NCBI GenBank assembly: GCA_030248295.1
Contig: JASANH010000770.1
Location: forward strand, 744,001 to 808,000
Origin: Mesodorylaimus sp. YZB2_4
Taxonomy: Eukaryota; Nematoda; Enoplea; Dorylaimida; Dorylaimidae
Length of the DNA stretch: 64,000 nucleotides
Direction of reading: 5' to 3'
This document shows positions 1,260 to 50,239 of this stretch, piece after piece. Below the pieces are notes generated by a model that saw only the letters and a list, made by a program, of their open reading frames with translations, had not been told where the DNA came from and did not search any database. The translations under genes and the position numbers were made by a program. The number at the start of each line of letters is the position of its first letter. Position 1 is the first letter of the stretch.

Positions 1260-4200
1260 TTAAAAACTAGCTTCAATGCGCTGCATGTCATTTGCGTCAT
1301 ATCGACTGAACGCTCTACGCTTTCCCAGAAGGTATGATAATAGATTGATAGCTTCGAAAATACTGAGGACAGACATGCCAGAATATAGACCAATCACGGA
1401 TGATATGTCCCACAATGCTTCGTTTATCTAAAAAATTAAATCGTTAAAAGTACCATCAACGGAGAAAGTTTCTTCCCTGACCCCATATACAGTTGTTTCA
1501 ACGTATTCCACAAATGTCAGATCCTCGAAAAAAATATCAATTTTTGAACCTTCTTGCGGCCTGAAATAAAAGATACAAATAGAGCCCGTGGAAGATATAA
1601 CACCATGCAACTACTGACCCTCCCTTGTAGGAGGAACCAGCTCCATCGCGTGAACTGTCGATCGAACTTAGCTAAAAAAGAGAGCTTGCAAATAAATAGA
1701 GTAGCGTTGACGAACAGGGAAGTCATACCTTACGATGGCGGGACCACACTGAGGTGGTGAGGACTCCATCATAAATGCTGCTTCTGCGTGAAGACATGAT
1801 CATAATTCATATAGGTCTCATTTTTAAACATCTTATCAGCTTACCTGCACGCAACAGGGCAGAAACATTTTGCGTCGCTCGTATTCACTGCGTAAAAATC
1901 ATTCACACAATCGCCTAAAAAATGTCATTTTATTGTTCAGAATTTGCATTGAAAAGATGAATGACGCACGCTGTTTCAAGTCGCAAAATTTAAGTTTCGA
2001 ATCTTTTGGTAGCGGTACTCGTGGATCTCCGCACTTGCACTTTTCGATTACGCTTTTTTGGTAGCAACTTCGTAAGCATGCCTGTGAAAGATTAAAAAAT
2101 CGTGCAAAAACTAGAAGGTTGAAAATTTAAAATCTTGTTCGCAAGAAAACACCCAGATTTTAAAAAAATTACTTCTGAAGAATAGGAAATATTTTCGTAG
2201 TTATAGACTGGCACTTGATCCGTGGTAGTTGCACATGGTTTTTCGCTAGTTGACAAGCTGTTCTCGTGAATCTGAGAAAGATATAAGACCTTCCGAGTAC
2301 TGGCCTTTAATACTGTGACCTACACAGTATCACATCTTTTTCTTACCAGACGCATGGCATATGTGCCCTTATACCCGCTCGGGAAACTGAACCCAGCCGA
2401 ATCAGGAAACACGGCCTCGTCGTGACTATGAACGACTACTCGGAGTCCCGAGGATTGAACAAAGTCGAGATATTCCTCTTGTTTTGGAGAAAGAGTTATC
2501 GATAGTCCTGCAAGAAATGGTTAAGGCAATATATACAAAACCTGTAAGTGGGGGGGGGGAGCCTTCAAGCTGGTGATGAACGTCGATTTCTGGTCACCAT
2601 AGTCATTACACATACTGCTGCGTGAAAAGATGAGTGGTTTCGAGCGGAAATAATCTGTAACACCATTCCCGATGGTGACAGGCATGCTGCTCGCATCCTC
2701 GCTTGCATGCAGAGCTGCGCGTCGCCGAAAAAACTCGCTCGCAAGTATGCTGATGCTGCGGGATCTCACAAGTATGCTGCCGCGCGCAGTAAGGCCGATT
2801 CGGCAGTTGTCTAGCCAGATTTTTTTTGAGTCAAGTACAACTTATATTTGTGTAATTTCTCACATACCGAGAACTTTCAGGTAGTGTTCGACCGGGGCCC
2901 CGACCCAGATCCCCATCCCCGTCCCCGCCCCTGAGAAAGATGTGGCGGGGATTCACCCTCGAAAACTTTCCCGCCTTTGACAGTCGAAAAGACCCACTAA
3001 ACATAGCGTCAGAATTTTGAGCCGTGTTGTGGGATGGTTACTTATAAAGAATACTGCTTTCTGCGTGGCGTGACGAGGCCTTGTGAAATGCGCACAAATT
3101 GGTCGGTAACATCAGGTCATTGCTGTTAGCTTGGGCTACCTAGCTAGCTATCTGCCGATGCTTTACTCTCCTCTGAAATAGAAAAATGTCCGAAGAGGTC
3201 CTATTTTGACAAAGTTGACAAAAATTTTTCAGGGTGCAAAATTTATTATGAAAAACTTGAGGTCCTTGATAATTCTAAGGCGCAAGATGGGATCAACATG
3301 CAATAGCTTGGCCAGGCTTTCACTGATAGTGTTCTTGTCTCTGCTAATCTGCAATAGATTTCCGGGTATGTGTGAAGGCTTCTGGTAAAAAATGCAGGGT
3401 AAACTGCATGAAGTTTTTAGAACATGTTAAGAAATTAAGATATAAGCAGACTTTGACACTCTGAAAGCTTTTTCTCATCCCCGTCCCCGAAAAAATCACC
3501 CCCGGTCGAACGCTACTTTAAGGGAAACATTTAAACGGATGAATAATTATAAATTTTGACTGAAGTACTGCAGGCCATTTCTGACTTACCATATCCAGCT
3601 CCCGCTCGAACTGCCAGCGTTTGATTGTTTTCAGCGTTGAAAGTGTAGCAGTTACCATAACTTGGATTAATGCGCAGCTTAAACGCACTGAAAGCAAGAT
3701 TCCTGACTTCAGAAAAAAAACTTCTCGTTTATTGCATCTCACCTCTCGTTGCACTTCAGACCATTGTACGTGCAGCTAACAATTAGTTCAGAAAATGAGT
3801 AACTAGCTTTTTCAGCAATCTCTGCCGGCAATGAGGCGACTATGTAAGCCAGCATATCTTCGCTGGTCGTGCTCAGAGCGTTCATATCGGACGAGATCTG
3901 CAGCAGAATCCCAATTACTCTTCGCAAAAAAGAGACAAGAGATCGCTTACATTTTGCAAGACAGCCATGATGTACTCTTCCTCTAAAATTTGAGTCGTGG
4001 TTGTTGAAATACTAGCGGCAACACTGTCTGATGGCGTCTTTGTTTCAAGCGTTGATGATATGGCTTCTCTCTTATTAGTCGGCGAAGCAGACGACTGAGA
4101 TGTTGGCTGGGCTTTTGTTTCAAAGGGAATGAGTTCTCTTGTAGTCAGCGCGAATATAACGTCTAGTGTTGCAGGGGGTCGCTGCGCTTTCTGTTGCATC

Positions 4201-7200
4201 GTATTCACATTTCCATTCGTAAAGACTGATTTTGAGCTTTCAGGAGCTTGTTCGCTTGTCGCTAGTCTTGTTTTGCTGGTTGAGTACAAGTGGGTATGTT
4301 CTTGGTGTCTTCTAATGGCTTCTGTTAAATGTTTTGTGAAGGAGCCACGATCGCTGTTTTGGCTAGATGCTGGTGGGACCTGAACTGTAGGCGCTGGTTT
4401 CTGAGATGGGAGGGAGGAAATCTTGCTTATGCCCGTAATAAAGGCTTCTTGCCAATTTTGTGTTGTTATTGTTGTTGTCACTGATGGAAATTTCGAGGTC
4501 ACAAATAATGATTTGGGGCTCTCAGCTAAATGTGAAACAGGTTTTATTCCTTCAGAATGCTGCAGCGATGATGTTTCTGTAGTAAAATAATCTTGTGTTT
4601 TTATTGGAGTAGTGTGGTACATAGATGGCAGAGTGCTCTGTGTCTTCATCGCGTTTGTGTCCACTGCATCTGTCAAAACTGGCGATAGGCTCGGTTCCGA
4701 TGTGTACTTTGTCATCCGAGACGCTAATTTTTTCCGAATTCTTCGAGTGGTTGTGGTTGTGAATAAATTCACTGCTGAAGTCTCTCTTGAGTTTGTAACA
4801 GCTACGGGCATCAACGCGGAGGATTCGGGACCAACTGTTGTGACACTAGCAAAGAAGCTGTCGAGGGTAGACGTCGTAGAAGACTCAGATCTTATTTTCT
4901 CTGACTCTGACAATGATGTGGACTGTAGTTCTGTTGTAGTGATACGTAAAACCTTGGTGCTCTCGGCTGCAGCTGTAGTGATAGTGTTTGTCAGAGGGGC
5001 AGGGCTAGAAATTTCTGCGCTCTGCTGGATGAGAGCAGCTTCTTCTTGAGTGTTTGGCCTCTGGCTGGTTTCATACATTGTAGAGTCACTTAGAAAAACA
5101 GCATTTGTTGACCTTTCCGAACTGTTTGGATTAGGCATGCTGCGCGTAGTTATCGAAGGCGCTGACAGTGGACCCGATGTGCCCCGGCGGCTCTTTCTCT
5201 TTTTTGTAGACGTAACCGCGCTAACATATGCTGAGGTGGATAGCAGATTTGTTGAAACAAGTAATTCGGATGCATTGGCCTCTAAATTTCCTGTTGGAAC
5301 AATTGCGGTCAAAGACGGGGAGGACGAAGGGATGGTGGGTGTTTTTGAAATTGAAGGAGTAAATACAGCAATTGATGAGTTTTCAGCCATTTTTGCAGTT
5401 GTGTGTGGCGTGATGGACCCAGTTACTGGAGAGATCATACTGCGCGAAGTTAGTATTGTTGCGGGAGCAGCAGATTTTGTGGTGGGTGAGATTGATGCAG
5501 TCGACAGAGATATCAAAGTTGATGATTCAGAGCTCGATGCTGCCAATGGGGGTCTTGGTGGTGCCGTACGGGGGATCAGTCTTATTCGCCTTGAAGTTTG
5601 CGCTGTTTCTTGAGGCGAGACTGTAGTTGCTGATGAGGGCGTGTTCAGCATTGAGAACTGAGAGGATGATAATGTCGTAGGCGTGGACAGTGTTTTGTAT
5701 TGAGTGGGCGAGGAAGTCGTAGGGGCAGCTGGTGTTGTGGATCGCGAGGACAGTGCGGTGAGTCGTGAGGTTGATGTTGTCAAAGATGTGGTTGGTATTA
5801 TGGACTGCAGGGTAGATGATGTCGTAGGTGTGGACAGTGTTCTGTATTGAGTGGGCGAGGAAGTCGTAGGGGCAGCTGGTGTTGTGGATCGCGAGGACAG
5901 TGCGGTGAGTCGTGAGGTTGATGTTGTCAAAGATGTGGTTGGTATTATGGACTGCAGGGTAGATGATGTCGTAGGTGTGGACAGTGTTCTGTATTGAGTG
6001 GGCGAGGAAGTCGTAGGGGCAGCTGGTGTTGTGGATCGCGAGGACAGTGCGGTGAGTCGTGAGGTTGATGTTGTCAAAGATGTGGTTAGTATTATGGACT
6101 GCAGGGTAGATGATGTCGTAGGTGTGGACAGTATTCTGTATTGAGTGGGCGAGGAAGTCGTAGGGGCAGCTGGTGTTGTGGATCGCGAGGACAGTGCAGT
6201 GAGTCGTGAGGTCGACGTTGTCAAAGATGTGGTTGGTACTATAAATTTCAGGGTAGATGATGTCGTAGGTGTGGACAGTGTTCTGTATTGAGTGGGCGAG
6301 GAAGTCGTAGGGGCAGCTGGTGTTGTGGATCGCGAGGACAGTGCAGTGAGTCGTGAGGTCGACGTTGTCAAAGATGTGGTTGGTATTATGGATTGTAGGG
6401 TAGATGATGTCGTAGGTGTGGACAGTGTTCTGTATTGAGTGGGCGAGGAAGTCGTAGGGGCAGCTGGTGTTGTGGATCGCGAGGACAGTGCAGTGAGTCG
6501 TGAGGTCGACGTTGTCAAAGATGTGGTTGGTATTATGGACTGCAGGGTAGATGATGTCGTAAATGTGGACAGTGTTCTGTATTGAGTGGGCGAGGAAGTC
6601 GTAGGGGCAGCTGGTGTTGTGGATCGCGAGGACAGTGCGGTGAGTCGTGAGGTTGATGCTGTCAAAGATGTGGTTAGTATTATGGACTGCAGGGTAGATG
6701 ATGTCGTAGGTGTGGACAGTATTCTGTATTGAGTGGGCGAGGAAGTCGTAGAGGCAGCTGGTGTTGTGGATCGCGAGGACAGTGCAGTGAGTCGTGAGGT
6801 CGACGTTGTCAAAGATGTGGTTGGTATTATGGATTGTAGGGTAGATGATGTCGTAGGTGTGGACAGTATTCTGTATTGAGTGGGCGAGGAAGTCTTAGGG
6901 GCAGCTAGTGTTGTGGATCGCAAAGTCAGTGAAGTGAATTGTGGGGTGGATGATGTCAAAAATGCTTCGAGTATTGTGTATCTTGAGGACATTGGTGTCG
7001 ATGGTGCAGCTGGTAGGATGGATCGTTGGGTAGAGGATGTGTAAGGTGGGCTGGGTATTGCGGATGGCAAGGTCGCTGCTGGTGTGGCTTTGTTCAGTAC
7101 TTTAGATTGCGAGAAAGATGACACTAAATATGTGTTTGACGATATAGGTCGTGAAGTGGGTGATGGTAAAGGAGTTGTTGGTATAATGGATCGCAGGGTA

Positions 7201-10200
7201 GATGATGTCGATTGAGTGGTTGGTAACATGGATTGCAAGGGCAATGGCGCCGTCGGCGTTAACTGGGCTGTCGATCGCAAGGTAGATGGCGTTGGAGATG
7301 CAGTTGGTGCTTCTGATCGTAGACTAGATGATGACATGGTGGGTAATCCTGATTGCAAGGAGAAAAGTGGTGTAGGAAGGGTCTGCATTGTGATTGGCAA
7401 TGTTGATGGTGCCAAAGGTGCAGTAGAGAATATTGATCGTAAAGTAGATGCTATATATGATGAACTTGATGTCACAGAGTGTAAGGTGGATGATGTCAAA
7501 GGTGCGGCTTGTATTGTTGATGTCGATGGTGAGCTTGCTGCTTTGGATGACTGGGTAGATGATGTCAAAGGGGCGTTCTGAAATGTCGCCGTAGTTATTT
7601 CAATGGGGGAAGACATAGCTGTTGAAGAGGGGCTTCGGAATGTTGAAGTCTGAGTGTTGGTGTAACTGCTACTTGAAGTCGCGGCGTCACTTGTGAATTT
7701 GGACGTAAAAAAACCACTGCTAGAAGTAGTCTCAGTCAAGTTTGTTGAACACGCCGAGGTATACTTTCTTAGGGTGGAGCTTGCTGTCGACGCAGTGGAA
7801 GAAGATGAGGCTGGCCCAGTTGTTTGAGATGTCGAATTAGAAAAACTCAATTTTATCGTTATTGGCGAGGTCGTTTTTGTCGATGTCGATGATGTTGAAC
7901 GCGTGGTCATTTTCGTCGATGTCGATGATGTTGAACGCGTGGTCATTTTCGTCGATGTCGATGATGTTGAACGCGTGGTCATTTTTGTCGATGTCGATGA
8001 TGTTGAACGCGTGGTCATTTTCGTCGATGTCGATGATGTTGAACGCGTGGTCATTTTCGTCGATGTCGATGATGTTGAGCGCGTGGTAGTTTTTGTCGAT
8101 TTTGAGGTTGATGTTGAGGATGTGGGATTGTCAAAGTCTAGAAACTTGAAACCATTTTAAAGAAGTTTCGACAGAAAAGAAAGTATTAATTTAAAATACT
8201 TTCGATTATGACATGGTCGCTAGTAAAGCAGAGAAATGGCCAAGACATGGAGCGTATGCGATGACTTCATAGAAGTCTCTTCTCCAAGGGGCTACCTTAT
8301 ACGAGCTTTTGGATCTTAAGACAGGGTTTCCGTCGGGTCGATTCGACCCAATCACTTAAAAACTGGCCGAGTAAAAAATGTGACTTGTCCAGTTGACCCT
8401 TTCTGCCGATGAAGGGCCCATTGCAGGTGTGCAGGGGGTTCGATCGGCTAAAAATAATTGTTCTTCTAAGATATCGAACTTTTATGTTTTATTAAACTGA
8501 CCGAAAATGGGGCTTCGGCGATATTGATCACCAAAAATCAATTTTTAGCGGCCGCGGTGGTGTAGCGGTTCAGATTTCGTGTCTCCATATTGCTTATGGC
8601 CGAGAGGCTGGACTCGTCCCAGGTTCGATCCGCAGTGAGGGAGGTCGTTTTGCGAACTATAAACGCTTGCTGACCTTGCACGCCAGGCTGTGGGTGACTC
8701 ACTTGGCACTATCGAGGTGCTCTAACGATAAGTGGGGAGACGGGAGCCAAACGAGTAGACAGTCTCGCCTGTCGAACATTAACAGGGTTAAAGACCCACC
8801 TGATATGGGATAAAGGGTTTTATAACCGCGCAGCTGTTATATGCTGTGACATGTTTTTAATTATGAGTAGTACTGTAGACGGTTCAGTGAGGTCAGCTCT
8901 GAGTAGTGTGAGGAGCCGTTCAGTAAACGGTTAATGACGTCTTCGTGTGCTGCAATGCGCATAAGACTCTGCTCCAACGTAGGTCGATAAAGCGACATTC
9001 ACTGGCGACGTCGATTCGAACTTCGGCGTGGAGGACTTGGGATTTTAGAATTCGGGAAACTAGGTGTTTTGGCTGAAGAGGAGCTGCTGCAGGCGATTCC
9101 ACTTGTGATCCATCATCTGGTGGAAGCAGCAGACGAGCTGAAGATCCACCAACTCTGGCTAGAAGCCAAGCCTGTGAATAAGTCAAGCAGGGGATCCGCT
9201 TCATAGTGACAGCTCTAGGAATACCAGCCAAATCAGTCAGCTTTGGGAAGTGGAAGGAGTTTGCGACTTTAGCACTTAGTTTTCAAAGAAAGAGAGTGAG
9301 TGTGGCGAGGAAAGTGACCAATGCAGTGACGTCGGCATTTGCTTCGGATGGCCCACTTGAGCTTTTCAAAAGCATAGCGAATAAATACATTACTGATATG
9401 TGGGACAAAGACAACTTGAAACAATGCACACACTTCATAAAGCGCGTCATTGATCTATACAGGGATTCTCGCAGCCGTCAGGAACGCCTGCAAACTTTGG
9501 CTCTGATAGCGCCTGTGATGTGCTATCCAAAAATCCAAAAATGTCTCCCATTGTTGACCATTTATGCCGACATCGTCGAACAAGCACGAACCCAAGTTTG
9601 TTGTTCTATACCTCATTTTGTCGCATTGTTTGCGTTGGCAACATGGTGTATTTCTTTAATTTTTCTTCGGCATTTCTCAGAGTTTACATTTACCAAAAAA
9701 AGTAAAATTGTCCTAAATTTGATTTTGCGAAATGCGGTTTTTCGTTTATTGGTCATCATAAGGTAAACCGAATTGGGCGAAATCTTTTTTGTGATGATGC
9801 CCAATGTATGCCCTTTGATCCCTGATAAGAATCATTTCCCTTCTGGTCGATTCAGTATGTTTTTTTACTTTCCAAAGTTTTTTTGCAAATTCAACTTTCG
9901 TGGTCTTTTTCGTTTTAAAAATCGTGTATAAGGAAAAAGCAGATGCCGACACGGGCATTGTAAAGTACATTCGTTTTCGTGATGTGACAGCGGTTCATCT
10001 ATCTTTGAAAATTGATTTTTGGTTTGTTTGTTTTTCTGTGGGGGGAAGCCCGTTTTGGCCATAGCGCGCGGCAAGGAGTCAAACCTTATAAGCTGGAAAG
10101 CAGCGTCCCTATGCGTGTCTCCACAGGGAGCACCTCCGCGCGAGGGCATCCTGGACTGCACACCGGCTTCCTCGAACGATCGCGGGTGGGCTTTGAATCC

Positions 10201-12212
10201 TGTCGGTGTTATACAGCCGAGGCTGTCTTCTCGTGTGGCTTCCGTCTCTCCGCTCGGAGCACCTCGGCGGTACCGGGCGAGTCACCCACGGCCGTGCATG
10301 CAAGGTAAGCGAAGGTTTATGCTTCGCGAACCGACCTCCATCACCGGGGATCGAACCCGGGACGAGTCAAGCCACTCGATCCCAAGCAATACGGAGGGCG
10401 AATTCCGAACTGCTGCACCACCGTGGCCACCAAAAATTTTTTTGGTGGTCAATATCGCCGAAGCCCCATTTTTGGTCAGTCTCATAAAACATAAAAGTTT
10501 AAAATCTTGGAAGAAAAATTTTCTTGAGCCCATCGAACTCCCGTCTGCACACCTGCAATGGGACCTCTATCGGCCGATAGGGTCAACTGGACAAGTCACA
10601 TTTTTCACTTGGCCGCCTACGGGTCGAATGTACCAGAAAGCATGTCTTAATGATCAGACTTTATGGGCTCTCTCACGTTTTTCCACGCGTACAGTTCTTT
10701 AAATTGTCTAAGTTCATGATTCCCTATGTTTATGGAAGTGTTGGGTGGCCAGTGTCAGGATAGTTCCTGGTAAACCGAGAAGTCCATCTAATGCGTTGGA
10801 GGAGTCCCCACCCCCATTTTATGTGCCAATGCATACTCGAATTCCGGAAATCTAGCGCAGGCACGAGAAATTGGGGATGGGAAAGAGACTCTACTAATGC
10901 ACTAATATAGACTTTTCGGTTTACCGGAACTATCCTGGCACCGTCTCTTTAAATAATGAGGCTACGCTATGCGTTCGTGCCGCTCAAATTTCGAAGGAAA
11001 CATGAAGCAAACATTTTGGTCTTACATTCACAAATGGTCCCGTCATCCAAGTATCGGTCCTTCCAGCTTAGGAAGCAAACATCGGAGCCGTCGAGAGCGA
11101 TAGAGACTGCTGCATTTCCGCCCCAAGAATCGCTTCCATCAAGCTTTTTCGAATTTGTGCATCTCTTGCATATTCCAGGGACATTAACTGGGCTGCTAGA
11201 CTGAGTTGTTGAATCGGCATACCAGTAATAGCCTCTGGAATCTCCTGCCATACCAATCCATACGTCATCATCATCTATAAGCTTTTTGGCCACTAATAAA
11301 TCGACGATTGCTTGACTGTCGATTCTGGCCAAGCGACTATTCTTTCCAGCAGGCGCATTCTGTGCGCAGCAGGTGTAGCAGCAAGCCCAACCGCAGCTTA
11401 TGCCTCGATCATATCTGACAAACGTCGATGGCGAAACTTGGGGGTCAAAGGCTGTTTTGGTGGTGGCAGCGTTGCAAGTGCATGATGATAAGGGAGGATT
11501 ACTACGCTTCTCTCTCGGTTTTGCTGGTTCTAATGAGAGGTGCGTTTTATTCTGAGTCGACGGCTGATCTTCATTCGCTACTTCGTTGTATGCACTGACT
11601 AATCGCGCCACGCCAGGCTGCGAGGCCAATGCAGACTTTTTGTATGGATTCATGTTGCAAAATGTGACAGCTGGGAATGGCAAACGGCTTGTCTTCAGCT
11701 AAAATGGCAAATAATCGGTTTTTTACTATAAAATTGAGGACTCTTCTTACTCTGACGATCGAAGTGGTTGTCCGCTTCTGATATTTAATTACTAGTTCGC
11801 CGACAGAAAATAGGATGACCACAATTGACGCAACGGTGATAACCCACCAGAAAATTCGACTCTTGACACCTTTTTGAGTCAAGGCATGTCCAAGCGCCTC
11901 TGCGGATGAAGCTTCTAATGGATGGCCGCTTGGAATCATGGCTGAATGCGTTAAAATCTCGGAGTACACCAAAGTTTGATCCGGATGAAAAGCCTGCAAA
12001 GTCGCAATGTATTCTTCTCGAATGTAATCCCCAAGTGCAAGAAAATTTTTGGACTCGTGACCGCTTATGATAGGGTGAATTTCGCGATAGGTCCTAATAA
12101 TTATGAGCAGCTCAGGCAGACTTCTGACAGTGTCTACTGTAACAGTCCGGCCTCGGCGAAGTCTTTTCCAGCGCCAACTGTCGCCAAAGGAATGATTACC
12201 AATACATGTCAT
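1260..12212 (-). CDS. DEG/ENaC (degenerin) channel with C-type-lectin-like and giant mucin-like extracellular insertions
   Basis: Predicted amiloride-sensitive-type cation channel subunit of 2,114 residues in the plasma membrane. Exons (minus): 12212-11751, 11698-11026, 8137-3951, 3897-3743, 3687-3590, 2507-2347, 2271-2173, 2081-1970, 1887-1845, 1783-1729, 1671-1619, 1560-1482, 1427-1260. All junctions are GT-AG and all phases agree. TM1 is at about residues 121-142, followed by LPFPAVTFCN, the family's post-TM1 signature. A C-type-lectin-like domain spans about 260-379 and a Ser/Thr-rich domain about 380-1774. The channel fold then resumes with FSELIVSCTYNGLKC, YGNCYTFN, RVVVHSHDEAVFPD, the thumb segment ACLRSCYQKSVIEKCKCGDP, CFCPVAC, and TM2 with GLYSGMS (GxS filter). 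Ordinary degenerins are about 500-900 residues. The start is the first ATG of the exon that encodes TM1; the very N-terminus is the least certain part. Family assignment is firm; gating stimulus is unknown. Confidence 0.9.
5674..6930 (-). repeat. Coding minisatellite, nine copies of a 147-bp (49-residue) unit
   Basis: Units start at 5674, 5821, 5968, 6115, 6262, 6409, 6556, 6703 and 6850, exactly 147 bp apart. Each encodes 49 residues containing SSPTQYRTLSTPTTSST and TSRLTALSSRSTTPAAP. Copies differ by a few substitutions (Ile/Thr after SPTQYR, Pro/Phe in STPTT) and the 3'-most and 5'-most units are the most divergent. The unit length keeps the reading frame, so copy-number change would lengthen the mucin domain without breaking it. 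Confidence 0.95.
7870..8098 (-). repeat. 36-bp coding tandem repeat, about six copies
   Basis: A 36-bp unit encoding the 12-residue MTTRSTSSTSTK is repeated about six times with almost no sequence divergence, at the start of the mucin exon. Near identity between copies suggests recent expansion or ongoing homogenisation. It lies about 40 nt from the exon's splice acceptor. Confidence 0.93.
8316..10650. mobile_element. 2.3-kb inverted-repeat element with tRNA-like promoter boxes in its arms
   Basis: The left arm (about 8316-8650) and the right arm (about 10290-10650) are reverse complements with scattered differences. Shared landmarks, inward from each end, are TTAAGACA, a GGGTCGAnTCGACC-like segment, CCATTGCAGGTGTGCAG, TTTTATGTTTTATnA, and GGGGCTTCGGCGATATTGA. 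Each arm then holds a tRNA-like pair: an A-box-like TGGTGTAGCGG (left) and a B-box GGTTCGATCC. The core contains an open frame at 9183-9766. The structure looks like a foldback or TIR-type transposon that captured, or was built from, a tRNA-derived SINE. No target duplication was found. Confidence 0.65.
9183..9766 (+). CDS. Unrecognised open frame inside the inverted-repeat element
   Basis: A frame of about 190 codons runs on the strand opposite the host gene. It starts after an in-frame TAA and has no good ATG near its 5' end, so it may be an exon or a broken gene. The first 120 residues look protein-like, with charged helices (KYITDMWDKDNLKQC, HFIKRVIDLYRDSRSRQERL). The last 60 are hydrophobic and AT-rich and probably read into non-coding DNA. 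I recognise no family. Its position inside an inverted-repeat element suggests a mobile-element product, but that is inference. Confidence 0.3.
11026..11380 (-). other. C-type-lectin-like domain (CTLD) encoded in channel exon 2
   Basis: Residues about 256-379 of the channel contain the run LARIDSQAIVDLL followed by DDVWIGM, then a YYWY core, SWKDRY and a terminal TICE. These are the hallmark positions of a CTLD (A-x-I-x-S-Q, V-W-I-G, W-x-D, I-C-E). The calcium/sugar-binding EPN/QPD motif is not visible and the usual WND is WKD, so carbohydrate binding is doubtful. The Cys-rich stretch before it (around SCGWACCYTCC) holds the expected N-terminal cysteines. The final codon of the domain is split across the intron: exon 2 ends GAA-T and the next exon begins AC, giving ICEY. 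Confidence 0.75.
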
Positions 12213-26609: not shown

Positions 26610-27804
26610 TCAGATTTTCAGACAAAGTTCGACATTCCTGCTCTTATTTGTCCTGGCCTCCATCGTACCTGGGTCGGGTTGCTTCAAATCTTTGGCTTTA
26701 TTATCAGCGGAGGGATTTCCAGCCGAGTCCCTATCAGTTGGCTGTGGCTGTGGTCCATATCCATACGGACAGAATTTCTTTTTTCCTCCATTTGATTCTC
26801 CATGATGCTTGAATTTCGATGCAGCTTCCTCATAATTTTCACTGGCTCCTCCAGGCAACCCCGGTTCGCCAGCTTCTCCAACCGGCCCTGGAGGTCCATC
26901 TTCCCCCTGTGGACCAGGTGGTCCCTTTGGGCCCTATAACAAAGCAGTTACATATGTCATCGGGCAAATTTTGTCATATATTTCGCTTACTGGTAATCCA
27001 GGCATTCCAGGCTCTCCAACTGGTCCCTTGGGGCCTGGCGGACATTGTCGACATTGTCGAACACTGGTGAAGAGAGCCCAAACTGGGATGACTCCTGGTC
27101 TCCCTGGTATGCCCTTCGGACCGTTTTGACCAGGCTCTCCATCAGTGCCAGGCTCGCCCGGGGTGCCGGGATGACCAGGTGGACAGTAATACTCTAAAAA
27201 GCGGTTCTCAAAAGTGTATTCCTTTTTGAGGCTACAACTGTTTTAAACCATGTCTTATTGTTTCTGTTTTTCAGTTAGCCGTAATCTCATGATAAGCATG
27301 ATGGGATGACCCGTTGTCCAGCTAACAGCTAACACGCACGCTTTGCTGGATAACAAGCAATAAAGACAGGGCTTACTTAGCAAAAAACTTATCTCGGAGA
27401 ATCGCCCTGTACCTACCTTCAAATGATTTGCAAATCGGTTTTTTCGTTCTTCTAGGTTTTGGGATTTCTTTTTTCTGCTCCACAATTTCATCCCACGTGT
27501 CTTCGGTCATTAGCTAAAACACAAGTCTACGAAGTTGTGAACATAGTTTTGCAGTGAAAATGCTAGTCAAAATGACGAAATAAATATATTTTGGATCGAA
27601 GACTAGCTAAAAACCATCCAAAATACTTCTCTTTTCAAGAAAAACCTGATAAAGACAAACCTGAAATCTTTCAATACCAACAGACATTTCCTCCTCGATC
27701 GAAGATCCTTTATGCAAAAGCAATGGAACAGTAATGATTGTTGCCAGAACAGTGACTACACTGAACAAAATTGAAGCGGAAGCTACAACATCCGTCGGCG
27801 TCAT
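26610..27804 (-). CDS. Nematode cuticle collagen
   Basis: Structural protein of the extracellular cuticle. Exons 27804-27661, 27513-27417, 27193-26991 and 26933-26610 give 255 residues in frame. Residues 1-48 form the nematode cuticle-collagen N-terminal module: a hydrophobic segment ([21 protein letters not shown]) and an acidic [12 protein letters not shown] stretch. The next exon has the family-like MTEDTWDEI. Gly-X-Y blocks follow, interrupted by a short insert with VRQCRQC, whose cysteines probably crosslink chains. An RRTKKP basic patch lies between the membrane segment and the collagen blocks, where these proteins are normally cleaved by a subtilisin-like protease. The C-terminal non-collagenous tail (CPYGYG followed by a Lys/Asp-rich end) is longer than usual. 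The total length and short Gly-X-Y blocks fit a small cuticle collagen. Confidence 0.9.
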
Positions 27805-47923: not shown

Positions 47924-49192
47924 TTACAAGCTGAAAAGTAAGCCGAGACCGAGAGTAACATAGAGGACAGAGTTCCAAAGCACGGATTCAGTAGTGGCCC
48001 CTGACTTTGGTGTATTAGTGACATGGCTGGTGCGTGGGATTGCAGCACTAGTGATCGGGCTAGCACTTGAGTCCTCTGCCCTGCCATCACTTTTTTGCTT
48101 GGCTACTTCTCCCTTCATAATCATATTCACATACTGTTTATCCGATTCTGTTCCGCAGGTGACATTCTGGCCCAGTTTGGTCGGGCAGAACACGTCCAAT
48201 CGTTCTTCCCCGTCCACCTTCAACAGTCCCGCGGCTCCCTTGAGAATCCTGAACAGGCTGTGGTCGACGAGGGTGTACGTTCCAGGGACGGGGGTTTGGA
48301 ACTCGACCACTGTCGACCCCCCTGCGGGCACTAGCGTGGTTTGGATAGCCCTGGCGGGTGGGCTGATCAGGTCGCCTTCTCGATAGACTTGGTCGAATAT
48401 GATGCCGATAATGTGAAATGACGCCGCCAAGTTGGGGCCGGCATTGCCGAAGAAGATGCGGACACGTTCGTTGGTCTTGGCCGTCAGGGGGGAAGTGACC
48501 AGGGAGTCGGCCCTGCCATTGAAGACGATGTGCGATGGTCGTTCGTCCAGGCCGTCCTCGTAAGCGGGTTTCAGCAAAGTGCTGTCGTCGCCTTTGGTGT
48601 AGAACTCGCTGCGTAGAACGTAATATTCTCGGTCAACCGTTGGCAGCCCTTCTGCAGGCTCGACCAGGATCAGGCCGTACAGCCCGTTGGCCAAGTGGTG
48701 AGGGGCGGGAGACACAGCGCAGTGATAGATGTACAGGCCAGTGGAGAGCAGCTGGAACGAGGCAACCACAGTTTCGCCTGGGCTAGCTCTCAGAACTCCC
48801 GCACCTCCTCCAGGGCCACTGACCGCGTGGAAATCGATGGTGTGGGCCACACCTGCATCCTCGGCGTTGGTAAAGATGACTTCCAGCCTGTCCCCCACTC
48901 TGGTCCGGATGATGGGGCCGGGCACGTGGTTGTCGTAGGTCCAAAACTCAAAGTCGTGGGTTGCATTGAGTTTAGCTTTGACAATGGTCGAGTTGATGCG
49001 CAGGCGAAGATGGGCCGGATATGTTCGAGTGATCGGTGGGGGTACGTTGGGAGCGTATGCTTTCGGTGCATCGAGAACGGGTAGTTCGCCACATGATGCT
49101 ATTGGCTTGGCGAATTTGGGCGTGAATAAAAGAAGCAAACCAGCCAGGACGAGCATGGTGGCCTGAAATGGACGCAAGATACTTGAGCTCAT
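47924..49192 (-). CDS. Copper nitrite reductase (NirK/AniA)-like two-domain cupredoxin, secreted and probably GPI-anchored
   Basis: Single-exon protein of 422 residues; the first ATG is at 49192. A signal peptide (TMLVLAGLLLLFTPKFA) precedes two cupredoxin domains, about 60-210 and 220-350. The family reaction is nitrite to nitric oxide. Visible ligands: AHTIDFHAVSGPGGG (first His is type 1; Asp and last His are the catalytic Asp and a type-2 His), YHCA (type-2 His, type-1 Cys), HHLANG (type-1 His), SFHIIG (catalytic His) and LVDHSLFR (third type-2 His). The axial type-1 Met of the usual NGM is Leu (NGLYGL). The tail, rich in Ser/Thr, ends in a hydrophobic VLYVTLGLGLLFSL after SGATTES, as in GPI signals. 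It is visibly GC-richer than its neighbours and lacks introns, which suggests transfer from bacteria followed by eukaryotic adaptation. NO production is inference. Confidence 0.88.
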   Translation of the reverse strand: MSSSILRPFQATMLVLAGLLLLFTPKFAKPIASCGELPVLDAPKAYAPNVPPPITRTYPAHLRLRINSTIVKAKLNATHDFEFWTYDNHVPGPIIRTRVGDRLEVIFTNAEDAGVAHTIDFHAVSGPGGGAGVLRASPGETVVASFQLLSTGLYIYHCAVSPAPHHLANGLYGLILVEPAEGLPTVDREYYVLRSEFYTKGDDSTLLKPAYEDGLDERPSHIVFNGRADSLVTSPLTAKTNERVRIFFGNAGPNLAASFHIIGIIFDQVYREGDLISPPARAIQTTLVPAGGSTVVEFQTPVPGTYTLVDHSLFRILKGAAGLLKVDGEERLDVFCPTKLGQNVTCGTESDKQYVNMIMKGEVAKQKSDGRAEDSSASPITSAAIPRTSHVTNTPKSGATTESVLWNSVLYVTLGLGLLFSL

Positions 49193-50239
49193 CGTTGCCA
49201 CTCATGCTCTTCCTCAACAGCATTTTGGAAACGGAGCGCAGGTACCTAGGTAATAAGAGTTGTATGAGGGGGCTGCGAGTGATGAGCGGTCACCTACTAG
49301 GTATAGGTCCGTGCCCGATATGAGCTACTGTGCAGTACTGTACGTTATGAAGGCGCTCGCTATCTCTACGCTGTCCCATAGTTAAACCTGACATCGGATA
49401 GAAGCCCACGATACCAAAGGGCGGTGGTCCTCGCACAATGCTGGCCGCCGTGCTTGGAGGTGTTCGCTTCGCAGTGGAGGAGACGAACTACCGACCCTGG
49501 ACAATGAAGAACTCCTTTGTCCACCTATCCAAAGGCAAGAGCAAGCCCGCAAGTAATTCAATTTCAGACAAGTTTTGTCACGGAAAGTTGAACCAGCTGT
49601 GCGGTAAGTATTGCCCAGGAACAGTAGAGTGCTCAAGAAGAGAGCCGGAAACAAAATGACCAACTCTGAGAGACGAGCAAAATAGGAGTGAAAACGGGGC
49701 CTGCTGTTGTGTGTGTTCGAGAAGGACGTAATAATCAAGGTGAATGCGAGAAAAGGCCAAACATAATTGCTGAGTAGAGACAATAAGACAAGAGGAAAAG
49801 AGGAAAATGTGACAAAGATCGGGATATCATGCGTAAAAACAAACTGAAAAGCAACTGCGGGAAAATGGGGCATGTGCAAAAATTCTGCTGTTTTTATGAT
49901 CCATCTGGCTTTCCTTGTAACTGCTATGGCAAAGAAACGCAGGCTCCGATCCCGAAAGTAGCAGGCTTTCTCAATAAATTCGTTTCTGTTAATTTTCACC
50001 CCCTCCATTTATGGGCAGCACTTCCCCCCCCCCCCCCCCCGTCACTCTTGTCCCCTCTCTGCGATAAAAAGGCGAAGAATGTGGGTAAAAACTGCTTACA
50101 GACACAGTGCTCGAGCAATCATGTATTATGTTGAAAACAGCATGGCTCTAGCCTACAGATAGCGTTGACACAGAGAGTTAACTTAGATGAATCTTTTCGG
50201 TTGTTCGAGCATAACTCAAAGAGAAGCGAAACGCAGCAG
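49193..50239. other. Upstream region of the nitrite reductase-like gene
   Basis: No supported gene. A 208-codon minus-strand frame at 49382-50008 is hydrophobic and then Arg/Ser-rich, with no recognisable family. A poly-C run at about 50025-50040 lies here. Confidence 0.45.

Follow-up and report, generated by a model that had tools for sequence, protein, structure and literature searches.

A predicted DEG/ENaC channel subunit of a dorylaimid nematode with lectin-like and mucin-like regions in its extracellular loop

A 64,000-nucleotide stretch of the genome of the nematode Mesodorylaimus sp. YZB2_4 (hereafter "the window"; positions 744,001 to 808,000 of contig JASANH010000770.1, assembly GCA_030248295.1) contains a minus-strand gene (12212..1260) that is predicted to encode a subunit of a DEG/ENaC channel, belonging to a nematode subfamily that has expanded in this lineage. 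The product carries a lectin-like domain and a giant Ser/Thr-rich region inside its extracellular loop. We are highly confident of this architecture and of the family to which the gene belongs, both of which are read from sequence. The larger statement, that the insert is cleaved and acts as a tether built into the channel subunit, is in our judgement evenly balanced between being right and wrong.

The gene model comprises 13 exons with consistent phases, 12 of 12 introns with GT-AG borders, and 2,123 codons followed by the stop TAA, with no stop in frame. The encoded protein runs from the first transmembrane segment (TM1) through the FPAVTFCN signature, the lectin-like domain, the Ser/Thr-rich exon (1,395 codons) and the remaining DEG/ENaC channel to the second transmembrane segment (TM2). 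Re-derivation of the exons reproduced the 13 phase-consistent exons of a first-pass annotation, with the lectin and mucin exons joined in frame, as well as the three junctions it had named (11751/11698, 11026/8137 and 3951/3897). The length of 2,114 residues given there was corrected to 2,123.

Both halves of the channel match Pfam ASC: exons 1-2 with E 5.6e-17 (profile positions 3-117) and exons 4-13 with E 4.1e-54 (profile positions 141-453). The split of the profile places the insert within one channel domain. Two transmembrane segments flank one large ectodomain; TM1 was located by its hydropathy peak, and TM2, which falls below the hydropathy cut-off used, was recognised by homology to ENaC/ASIC only. 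Features of DEG/ENaC proteins include an FPAVTFCN-type motif after TM1, a G-x-S filter and a His-Gly gating motif before TM1. FPAVTFCN in exon 2 and GMS (the G-x-S filter) in exon 13 are both present, and no HG dipeptide was found by inspection of the N-terminus of the window protein, the one family member inspected for it.

When the insert is left out, the best PDB match of the channel part is ENaC gamma (E 2.9e-45), and the alignment stops at gamma residue 110 and restarts at residue 214. This gap indicates that the insert replaces the finger/GRIP region, which in ENaC is described as protease-sensitive; GRIP domains were reported in a vertebrate study to be unique to ENaC subunits (PMC8791634). 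MEC-4 and UNC-8 of C. elegans are likewise nematode DEG/ENaC subunits with two transmembrane segments and a variable fingertip region, and are described as matrix-connected. The size range quoted for the DEG/ENaC family in the same source is ~550 to 950 residues (PMC2943245), against 2,123 in the window protein. The features of the gene are as follows.

11751..12212, minus strand: exon 1, cytosolic N-terminus and TM1 (gene model, Pfam ASC)
11787..11843, minus strand: TM1, VITVASIVVILFSVGELVI (hydropathy peak, residues 124-142)
11026..11698, minus strand: exon 2, post-TM1 strand, furin-type linker and lectin-like domain; ends in phase 1
11654..11677, minus strand: FPAVTFCN post-TM1 signature (Pfam ASC match)
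11504..11515, minus strand: furin-type motif REKR, directly before the lectin-like domain (R-x-K/R-R in this linker in 16/22 loci)
11027..11503, minus strand: putative C-type-lectin-like domain; the codon that follows (Tyr) spans the junction with exon 3 (17-paralog profile, hhalign)
8138..11025, minus strand: intron 2, 2,888 bp, with long inverted repeats (transposon-like)
3951..8137, minus strand: exon 3, mucin-like, 1,395 full codons (reading frame and composition)
7865..8100, minus strand: tandem repeat, 12-codon unit x 6.6
5668..6964, minus strand: tandem repeat, 49-codon unit x 8.8
3743..3897, minus strand: exon 4, where the channel ectodomain restarts (ISSDMNALS..CTYNGLKC; Pfam ASC, ENaC gamma alignment from residue 214)
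3590..3687, minus strand: exon 5, channel ectodomain (YGNCYTFN)
2347..2507, minus strand: exon 6, channel ectodomain, 91% identity to paralog C51a
2173..2271, minus strand: exon 7, channel ectodomain
1970..2081, minus strand: exon 8, cysteine-rich part (ACLRSCYQ..CKCGDPRVPLP)
1845..1914, minus strand: exon 9, channel ectodomain
1729..1783, minus strand: exon 10, channel ectodomain
1619..1671, minus strand: exon 11, channel ectodomain, 17 full codons; tblastn finds none in paralogs
1482..1560, minus strand: exon 12, palm strand leading into TM2 (IDIFFEDLTFVEY)
1260..1427, minus strand: exon 13, TM2, GMS filter (1371-1379), short C-terminus and stop TAA (model, Pfam ASC)

The inverted repeats in intron 2 lie at 8365-8722 and 10257-10614 and form three arm pairs that are 79-90% complementary. 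They look like a ~2.2-kb transposon, whose internal 194-residue frame (9182-9763, plus strand) has no Pfam match.

A family of paralogs with a shared exon structure

Searches were made in the same nematode assembly (145 Mb), in which the window lies on contig C10, and the match counts they gave are lower bounds. With exon 2 as the query, at least 71 matches were obtained at E 0.01 or better. Twenty-eight of the 71 listed matches span the query from the channel motif (position 10 or before) to the lectin-like domain (position 150 or beyond), and 24 of the 28, including the window copy, contain no stop within the match; at least one of these 24, C51c, is broken elsewhere. The other 23 stop-free matches are 31-63% identical to the window copy. 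Across 18 exon-2 proteins, the F, A, T and C of the FPAVTFCN motif and the P preceding it are invariant. A phase-1 donor immediately follows the domain's closing Cys-x at 17 of the 20 lectin-encoding exon-2 loci examined closely (15 by scan, and L015 and L027 read directly from the bases), the remaining three (L012, L018 and L024) being broken or cut short.

The exon boundaries of 12 paralogs were compared for exons 1, 2 and 4-13, wherever the tblastn alignment reached within three residues of the exon end. A splice dinucleotide in the same phase was found within 12 bases at 137 of 139 boundaries, 135 of them exact, and the two misses are the exon-7 donors of C51c and C14. Because this exon structure recurs in 12 paralogs, the architecture is not a product of chance. 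The aligned exon-1 donor is conserved in C51a, C51b, C56, C1 and C61c, and the C-terminal end RIEASF-stop is identical in C51a. At the junction of the lectin and mucin exons, the shared codon is Tyr (Cys-Glu-Tyr) in seven of the seven loci placed (window, C51a, C51b, C1, C61c, C14 and C281). The exon-3 acceptor of C188 was not settled, and exon 3 of C1 was not joined to exon 4 in one frame.

The ratio of non-synonymous to synonymous substitution rates (dN/dS, here w) was calculated on tblastn-aligned codons only; most other pairs were saturated, so only the C51 copies are quoted. Between the window copy and C51a, w was 0.13 over 326 channel codons, at a synonymous divergence (dS) of ~1.1, and 0.25 over 157 codons of the lectin-like domain. 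For the lectin-like domain, w was 0.15 against C51b (158 codons) and 0.13 against C51c (124 codons). The channel and lectin-like parts both look to be under purifying selection, as judged from these pairs. Broken members of the family include C51c, C573 and C365. In the loci L012, L018 and L024, exon 2 has lost its frame or contains stops.

The paralogs strongly support the view that a single DEG/ENaC protein holds lectin-like and mucin regions inside its extracellular loop, as the first-pass annotation had described. That annotation treated the locus as a single gene and missed the multigene family, the recurring furin-type site and the effect of exon 3 on the reading frame.

The same genome also has a degenerin on contig C9 (L047), in which an FPAVTICN frame lies directly beside an exon-4-like frame, leaving no room for an insert. 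At least 114 ASC matches, counted by exons, were listed for the genome. In several of these loci (e.g., L002, L003, L005 and L007), a single frame without stops covers nearly all of the domain, in contrast to the present family with its 13 exons. Giant frames on C215 and C617 were considered as further insert-bearing channels and rejected: L073 and L074 are ordinary channel pieces, with no Ser/Thr-rich insert among frames of at least 200 residues.

Composition of the insert

The lectin-like label comes from a family profile together with a weak profile comparison, and the domain is best regarded as a putative, divergent member of the C-type-lectin-like domains (CTLDs). A 17-member exon-2 profile had five PDB matches up to E 10, all five of them C-type lectins: CLEC2D (E 3.4e-4), CLEC2A (0.01) and three dectin-1 entries (0.012-0.024). 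Compared by hhalign with 11 canonical CTLDs of the same genome, the profile reached a low probability of 5.5% (E 0.007), and its score of 22.1 was higher than those of all 100 column-shuffled controls (maximum 18.8) and of the reversed control (11.4). The window copy keeps a Leu-Ala-x-Ile, Trp-Ile-Gly and terminal Ile-Cys-Glu-Tyr pattern, which it shares with the CTLDs of CLEC2D, CLEC2A and dectin-1. It is unlike them in its extra Cys-Cys pair, in its diverged C-terminal half, which is the least conserved portion of the domain, in having no visible EPN or QPD motif, and in being embedded in a channel. The EPN/QPD calcium-sugar motif is needed for canonical sugar binding and not for the fold. 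Given the diverged C-terminal half and no visible EPN/QPD, classical calcium-dependent sugar binding is not expected of this domain.

Pfam Lectin_C matches one of 17 exon-2 proteins (E 0.025), and of the 119 Lectin_C matches that were listed genome-wide, none falls on an exon-2 match. A dense cluster of canonical C-type lectin matches on one strand, L061, L063, L064 and L066-L069 among them, was seen elsewhere in the genome (C21:899552-951984).

Exon 3 appears from its composition and repeats to encode a mucin-type region, for which O-glycosylation is predicted only. Ser and Thr make up 46% of its residues and Pro 8%; it has one Cys and five N-glycosylation sequons, and no Pfam family was matched within it. 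Its own frame contains no stop, compared with 73 and 29 stops in the other two sense frames, and the units of its two tandem repeats (147 bp x 8.8 and 36 bp x 6.6) are both multiples of three.

Two paralogs, C86 and C56, contain single uninterrupted frames of 1,813 and 1,868 residues, respectively, with FPAVTFCN, NPYK, RKKR and a long Ser/Thr/Pro-rich stretch. With the channel motif and the mucin in one frame, the fusion needs no assumption about splicing. Window exon 2 matches C86 and C56 only over query positions 2-64 and 1-69, and no core patterns of the W-x-C..CC, L-A-R-I-D-like or W-I-G-L-like type were found in the two frames; both appear from their sequences to be without the lectin-like domain. 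An unrooted FastTree of 12 loci, from which C281 was dropped for having only 85 aligned residues, separates C56 from C86 by group (support 0.89 and 0.88). It hints that the lectin-like domain was lost more than once. In C42, a mucin frame of 1,626 residues reads on into exon-4 channel sequence, probably across a short intron. Elsewhere, the Ser/Thr-rich frames measure ~75 (C281), 224 (C14), ~1,460 (C51b) and ~1,670 (C548) residues.

In 16 of 22 loci, a motif of the furin type, R-x-K/R-R, lies in the linker from NPYK to the insert; the 16 include the window and both loci without a recognisable lectin-like domain. The motif was found in none of the 22 loci in the following 150 residues (L018 and L024 end early and were less searched), nor in the four mucin exons of the window, C51b, C42 and C548. 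The only two other matches in the window protein are both in the cytosolic N-terminus. As controls, we used the six ASC loci that, of ten scanned, had the post-TM1 motif and more than 40 following residues; the furin-type motif was found after the post-TM1 motif in none of the six, three of these stretches being only 41-59 residues long. ENaC gamma (SCNN1G) also has polybasic protease sites in the region after its NPYK motif, as the window protein appears to have. To our knowledge, ENaC has neither a lectin-like nor a mucin domain. In ENaC, a short inhibitory tract is flanked by two cleavage sites (PMC8791634), whereas the window family has one recurring motif, a lectin-like domain and a giant mucin. 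Cleavage at the recurring site is somewhat favoured by the sequence evidence. With one recurring site and no second, furin alone would not be expected to release the insert.

A possible tether and alternative roles of the insert

At the position of the ENaC finger/GRIP region, the insert is ordered as furin-type site, lectin-like domain and mucin-like stalk, an arrangement that fits a role as a glycosylated tether or ligand sensor. In the mechanism that we propose, furin would cut at R-x-K/R-R during secretion, and the N-terminal piece (TM1 and the first palm strand) and the C-terminal piece (the insert, the remaining ectodomain and TM2) would stay assembled, as in cleaved ENaC. Since the site borders the insert on its N-terminal side, one cut would be enough to turn a loop anchored at two ends into an arm anchored only at its C-terminal end. 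The lectin-like domain would then sit free at the outer end of a long, O-glycosylated stalk, the inner end of which is fused to the finger; in C56 and C86, the mucin end would be the free tip. If the tip or stalk then bound to cuticle, matrix, mucus or a glycan, the finger might be pulled or reoriented and the sodium pore thereby opened or modulated. We advance this tether mechanism tentatively, at somewhat less than even confidence. Mucin stalks have a length per residue of 0.2-0.3 nm, by which the stalk of the window protein would perhaps extend some 280-420 nm.

A related idea, that glycans link the ectodomain to the matrix, is known for ENaC: N-glycans added to delta ENaC were reported to raise shear responses in a matrix-dependent way (PMC7958617). 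There the tether consists of a few N-glycans, whereas in the window protein the subunit itself would contain the tether, as a stalk encoded in the gene. According to PMC7958617, little is known about what forms the extracellular tethers of degenerins that are mechanosensitive, and the present gene offers a candidate encoded in the channel gene itself. The natural mucin frames, of ~75 to ~1,800 residues, occur both with a recognisable lectin-like head and without one, so that the length and the tip of the tether would become swappable, measurable variables and the family a natural test of channel tethering. If the mechanism is true, the gene family would encode a gating tether of a length that varies among the paralogs. 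It would also mean that a protease-maturation site of DEG/ENaC channels has arisen outside vertebrate ENaC, extending protease maturation, as described for vertebrate GRIP domains (PMC8791634), to an invertebrate relative. That this nematode lineage built force or contact sensors by equipping degenerins with a cleavable arm, in which a furin cut leaves a lectin-like head on a mucin stalk of the pore subunit, is a reading that we regard as unlikely.

Several observations count against parts of this picture. Pfam Lectin_C, which the first-pass annotation had proposed for a domain search, does not match the window copy; the unrelated DUF5555 matches two of 17 exon-2 proteins, its best E of 0.0056 being better than that of Lectin_C, and no EPN or QPD motif was seen on inspection of the 17 aligned sequences. 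The Tyr-join acceptor was ranked first by our script only in C51b and C281, was ranked lower in C1, C61c and C14, and was absent from the four listed for C51a. As the exon-3 acceptors were picked by eye for a Ser/Thr-rich frame near exon 2, the Tyr join is supporting and not independent evidence. In exon 3, 18 of 40 differences between repeat units are synonymous, compared with ~33% expected, a weak sign of coding constraint. C51a, the main comparison copy, carries one in-frame stop in its mucin (oriented 2996-2998), which together with the broken copies suggests birth and death of copies in the family. As regards the cleavage site, L011 has R-x-x-R only, and five of the 22 loci are without even that (L021, L025 and the broken or cut-short L012, L018 and L024). 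Paired proximal and distal sites bracketing an inhibitory tract were not found, one recurring site being all that was seen. Finally, the widely varying length of the mucin and the two paralogs without the lectin-like domain argue against a single conserved tether length or ligand.

The insert could instead serve in proteolytic gating of the ENaC kind, as a bulky inhibitory element at the GRIP position, with the lectin and mucin mainly a shield or steric brake and not a tether; a cut at R-x-K/R-R, perhaps plus one by a second, non-furin protease, would relieve the inhibition. The location of the insert, where ENaC has its GRIP domain, speaks for this reading, as does the furin-type motif, which 16 of the 22 loci have, among them both that lack a recognisable lectin-like domain. 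However, the four mucin exons examined have no second furin-type site, and ENaC activation is described as needing two cuts within one subunit that free the inhibitory tract (PMC8791634). The same source ties the paired polybasic tracts of ENaC to the move onto land. A mucin of 1,400-1,800 residues would also be left unexplained, and we rate this alternative as fairly improbable.

A similarly low likelihood is given to a chemosensory or recognition receptor, in which a ligand (a glycan, a protein, a microbe or a host molecule) bound by the lectin-like domain would gate the channel and the many diverged copies would form a repertoire of specificities. The number of stop-free exon-2 matches and their divergence (24, of which 23 are 31-63% identical to the window copy) are what such a repertoire would give, and variation is greatest in the C-terminal half of the domain. 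Nevertheless, the domain is under apparent purifying selection against three C51 copies (w 0.13-0.25), no canonical sugar motif was seen, and in C56 and C86, which have the mucin, a lectin-like core is not recognisable.

It is very unlikely that the window copy is a pseudogene in decay, within a family that is itself real. Several members are indeed broken (C51c, C573 and C365) and C51a has its mucin stop, but the window copy is free of stops over 2,123 codons with all introns GT-AG, and w to C51a is low in both the channel and the lectin-like exons.

The reading to which we give least credence, and which we reject, is that of an ordinary degenerin, with the lectin and mucin exons forming part of another gene or being left out by splicing: intron 2 is long and transposon-laden, but FPAVTFCN shares one exon with the lectin-like domain and one frame with the mucin in C56 and C86, and splice positions are conserved in 12 paralogs. 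With a phase-1 end of exon 2 and a phase-0 start of exon 4, a transcript that lacks just exon 3 is out of frame, and one that lacks both exons 2 and 3 stays in frame but loses FPAVTFCN. It follows that simple skipping cannot yield a channel that is without the mucin only, and the exon-skipping scenario that the first-pass annotation had held open is thereby largely removed.

The channel with a lectin-like and mucin-like insert also seems to be new. A DEG/ENaC protein of such architecture was not found described in the open-licence literature, a scope outside which most subscription papers fall, in agreement with the first-pass annotation. The main text of a family review contains neither "lectin", "mucin" nor "furin" (PMC10148893), and C-type lectin and degenerin appear as separate proteins in a list in PMC8144518.

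Other loci in the window

A match to Col_cuticle_N (cuticle collagen) lies within the window at 27661-27777 (C10:771661-771777); this domain has 133 matches in the genome, which mark it as that of a nematode. The exact 22-mer of the SL1 trans-splice leader has no match in the genome, and an RNA family search was empty, its controls being silent too. It hints that this nematode is outside the SL1-using groups.

A single open reading frame of 425 residues at 47927-49201 on the minus strand encodes a homologue of copper-containing nitrite reductase of the AniA/NirK type (PDB 1kbv, E 7e-96; Pfam Cu-oxidase_2/_3). From its sequence, this nematode homologue is a candidate for horizontal transfer. 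Four stop-free copies are present on contig C10, namely the one in the window and three others at 76-94% identity.

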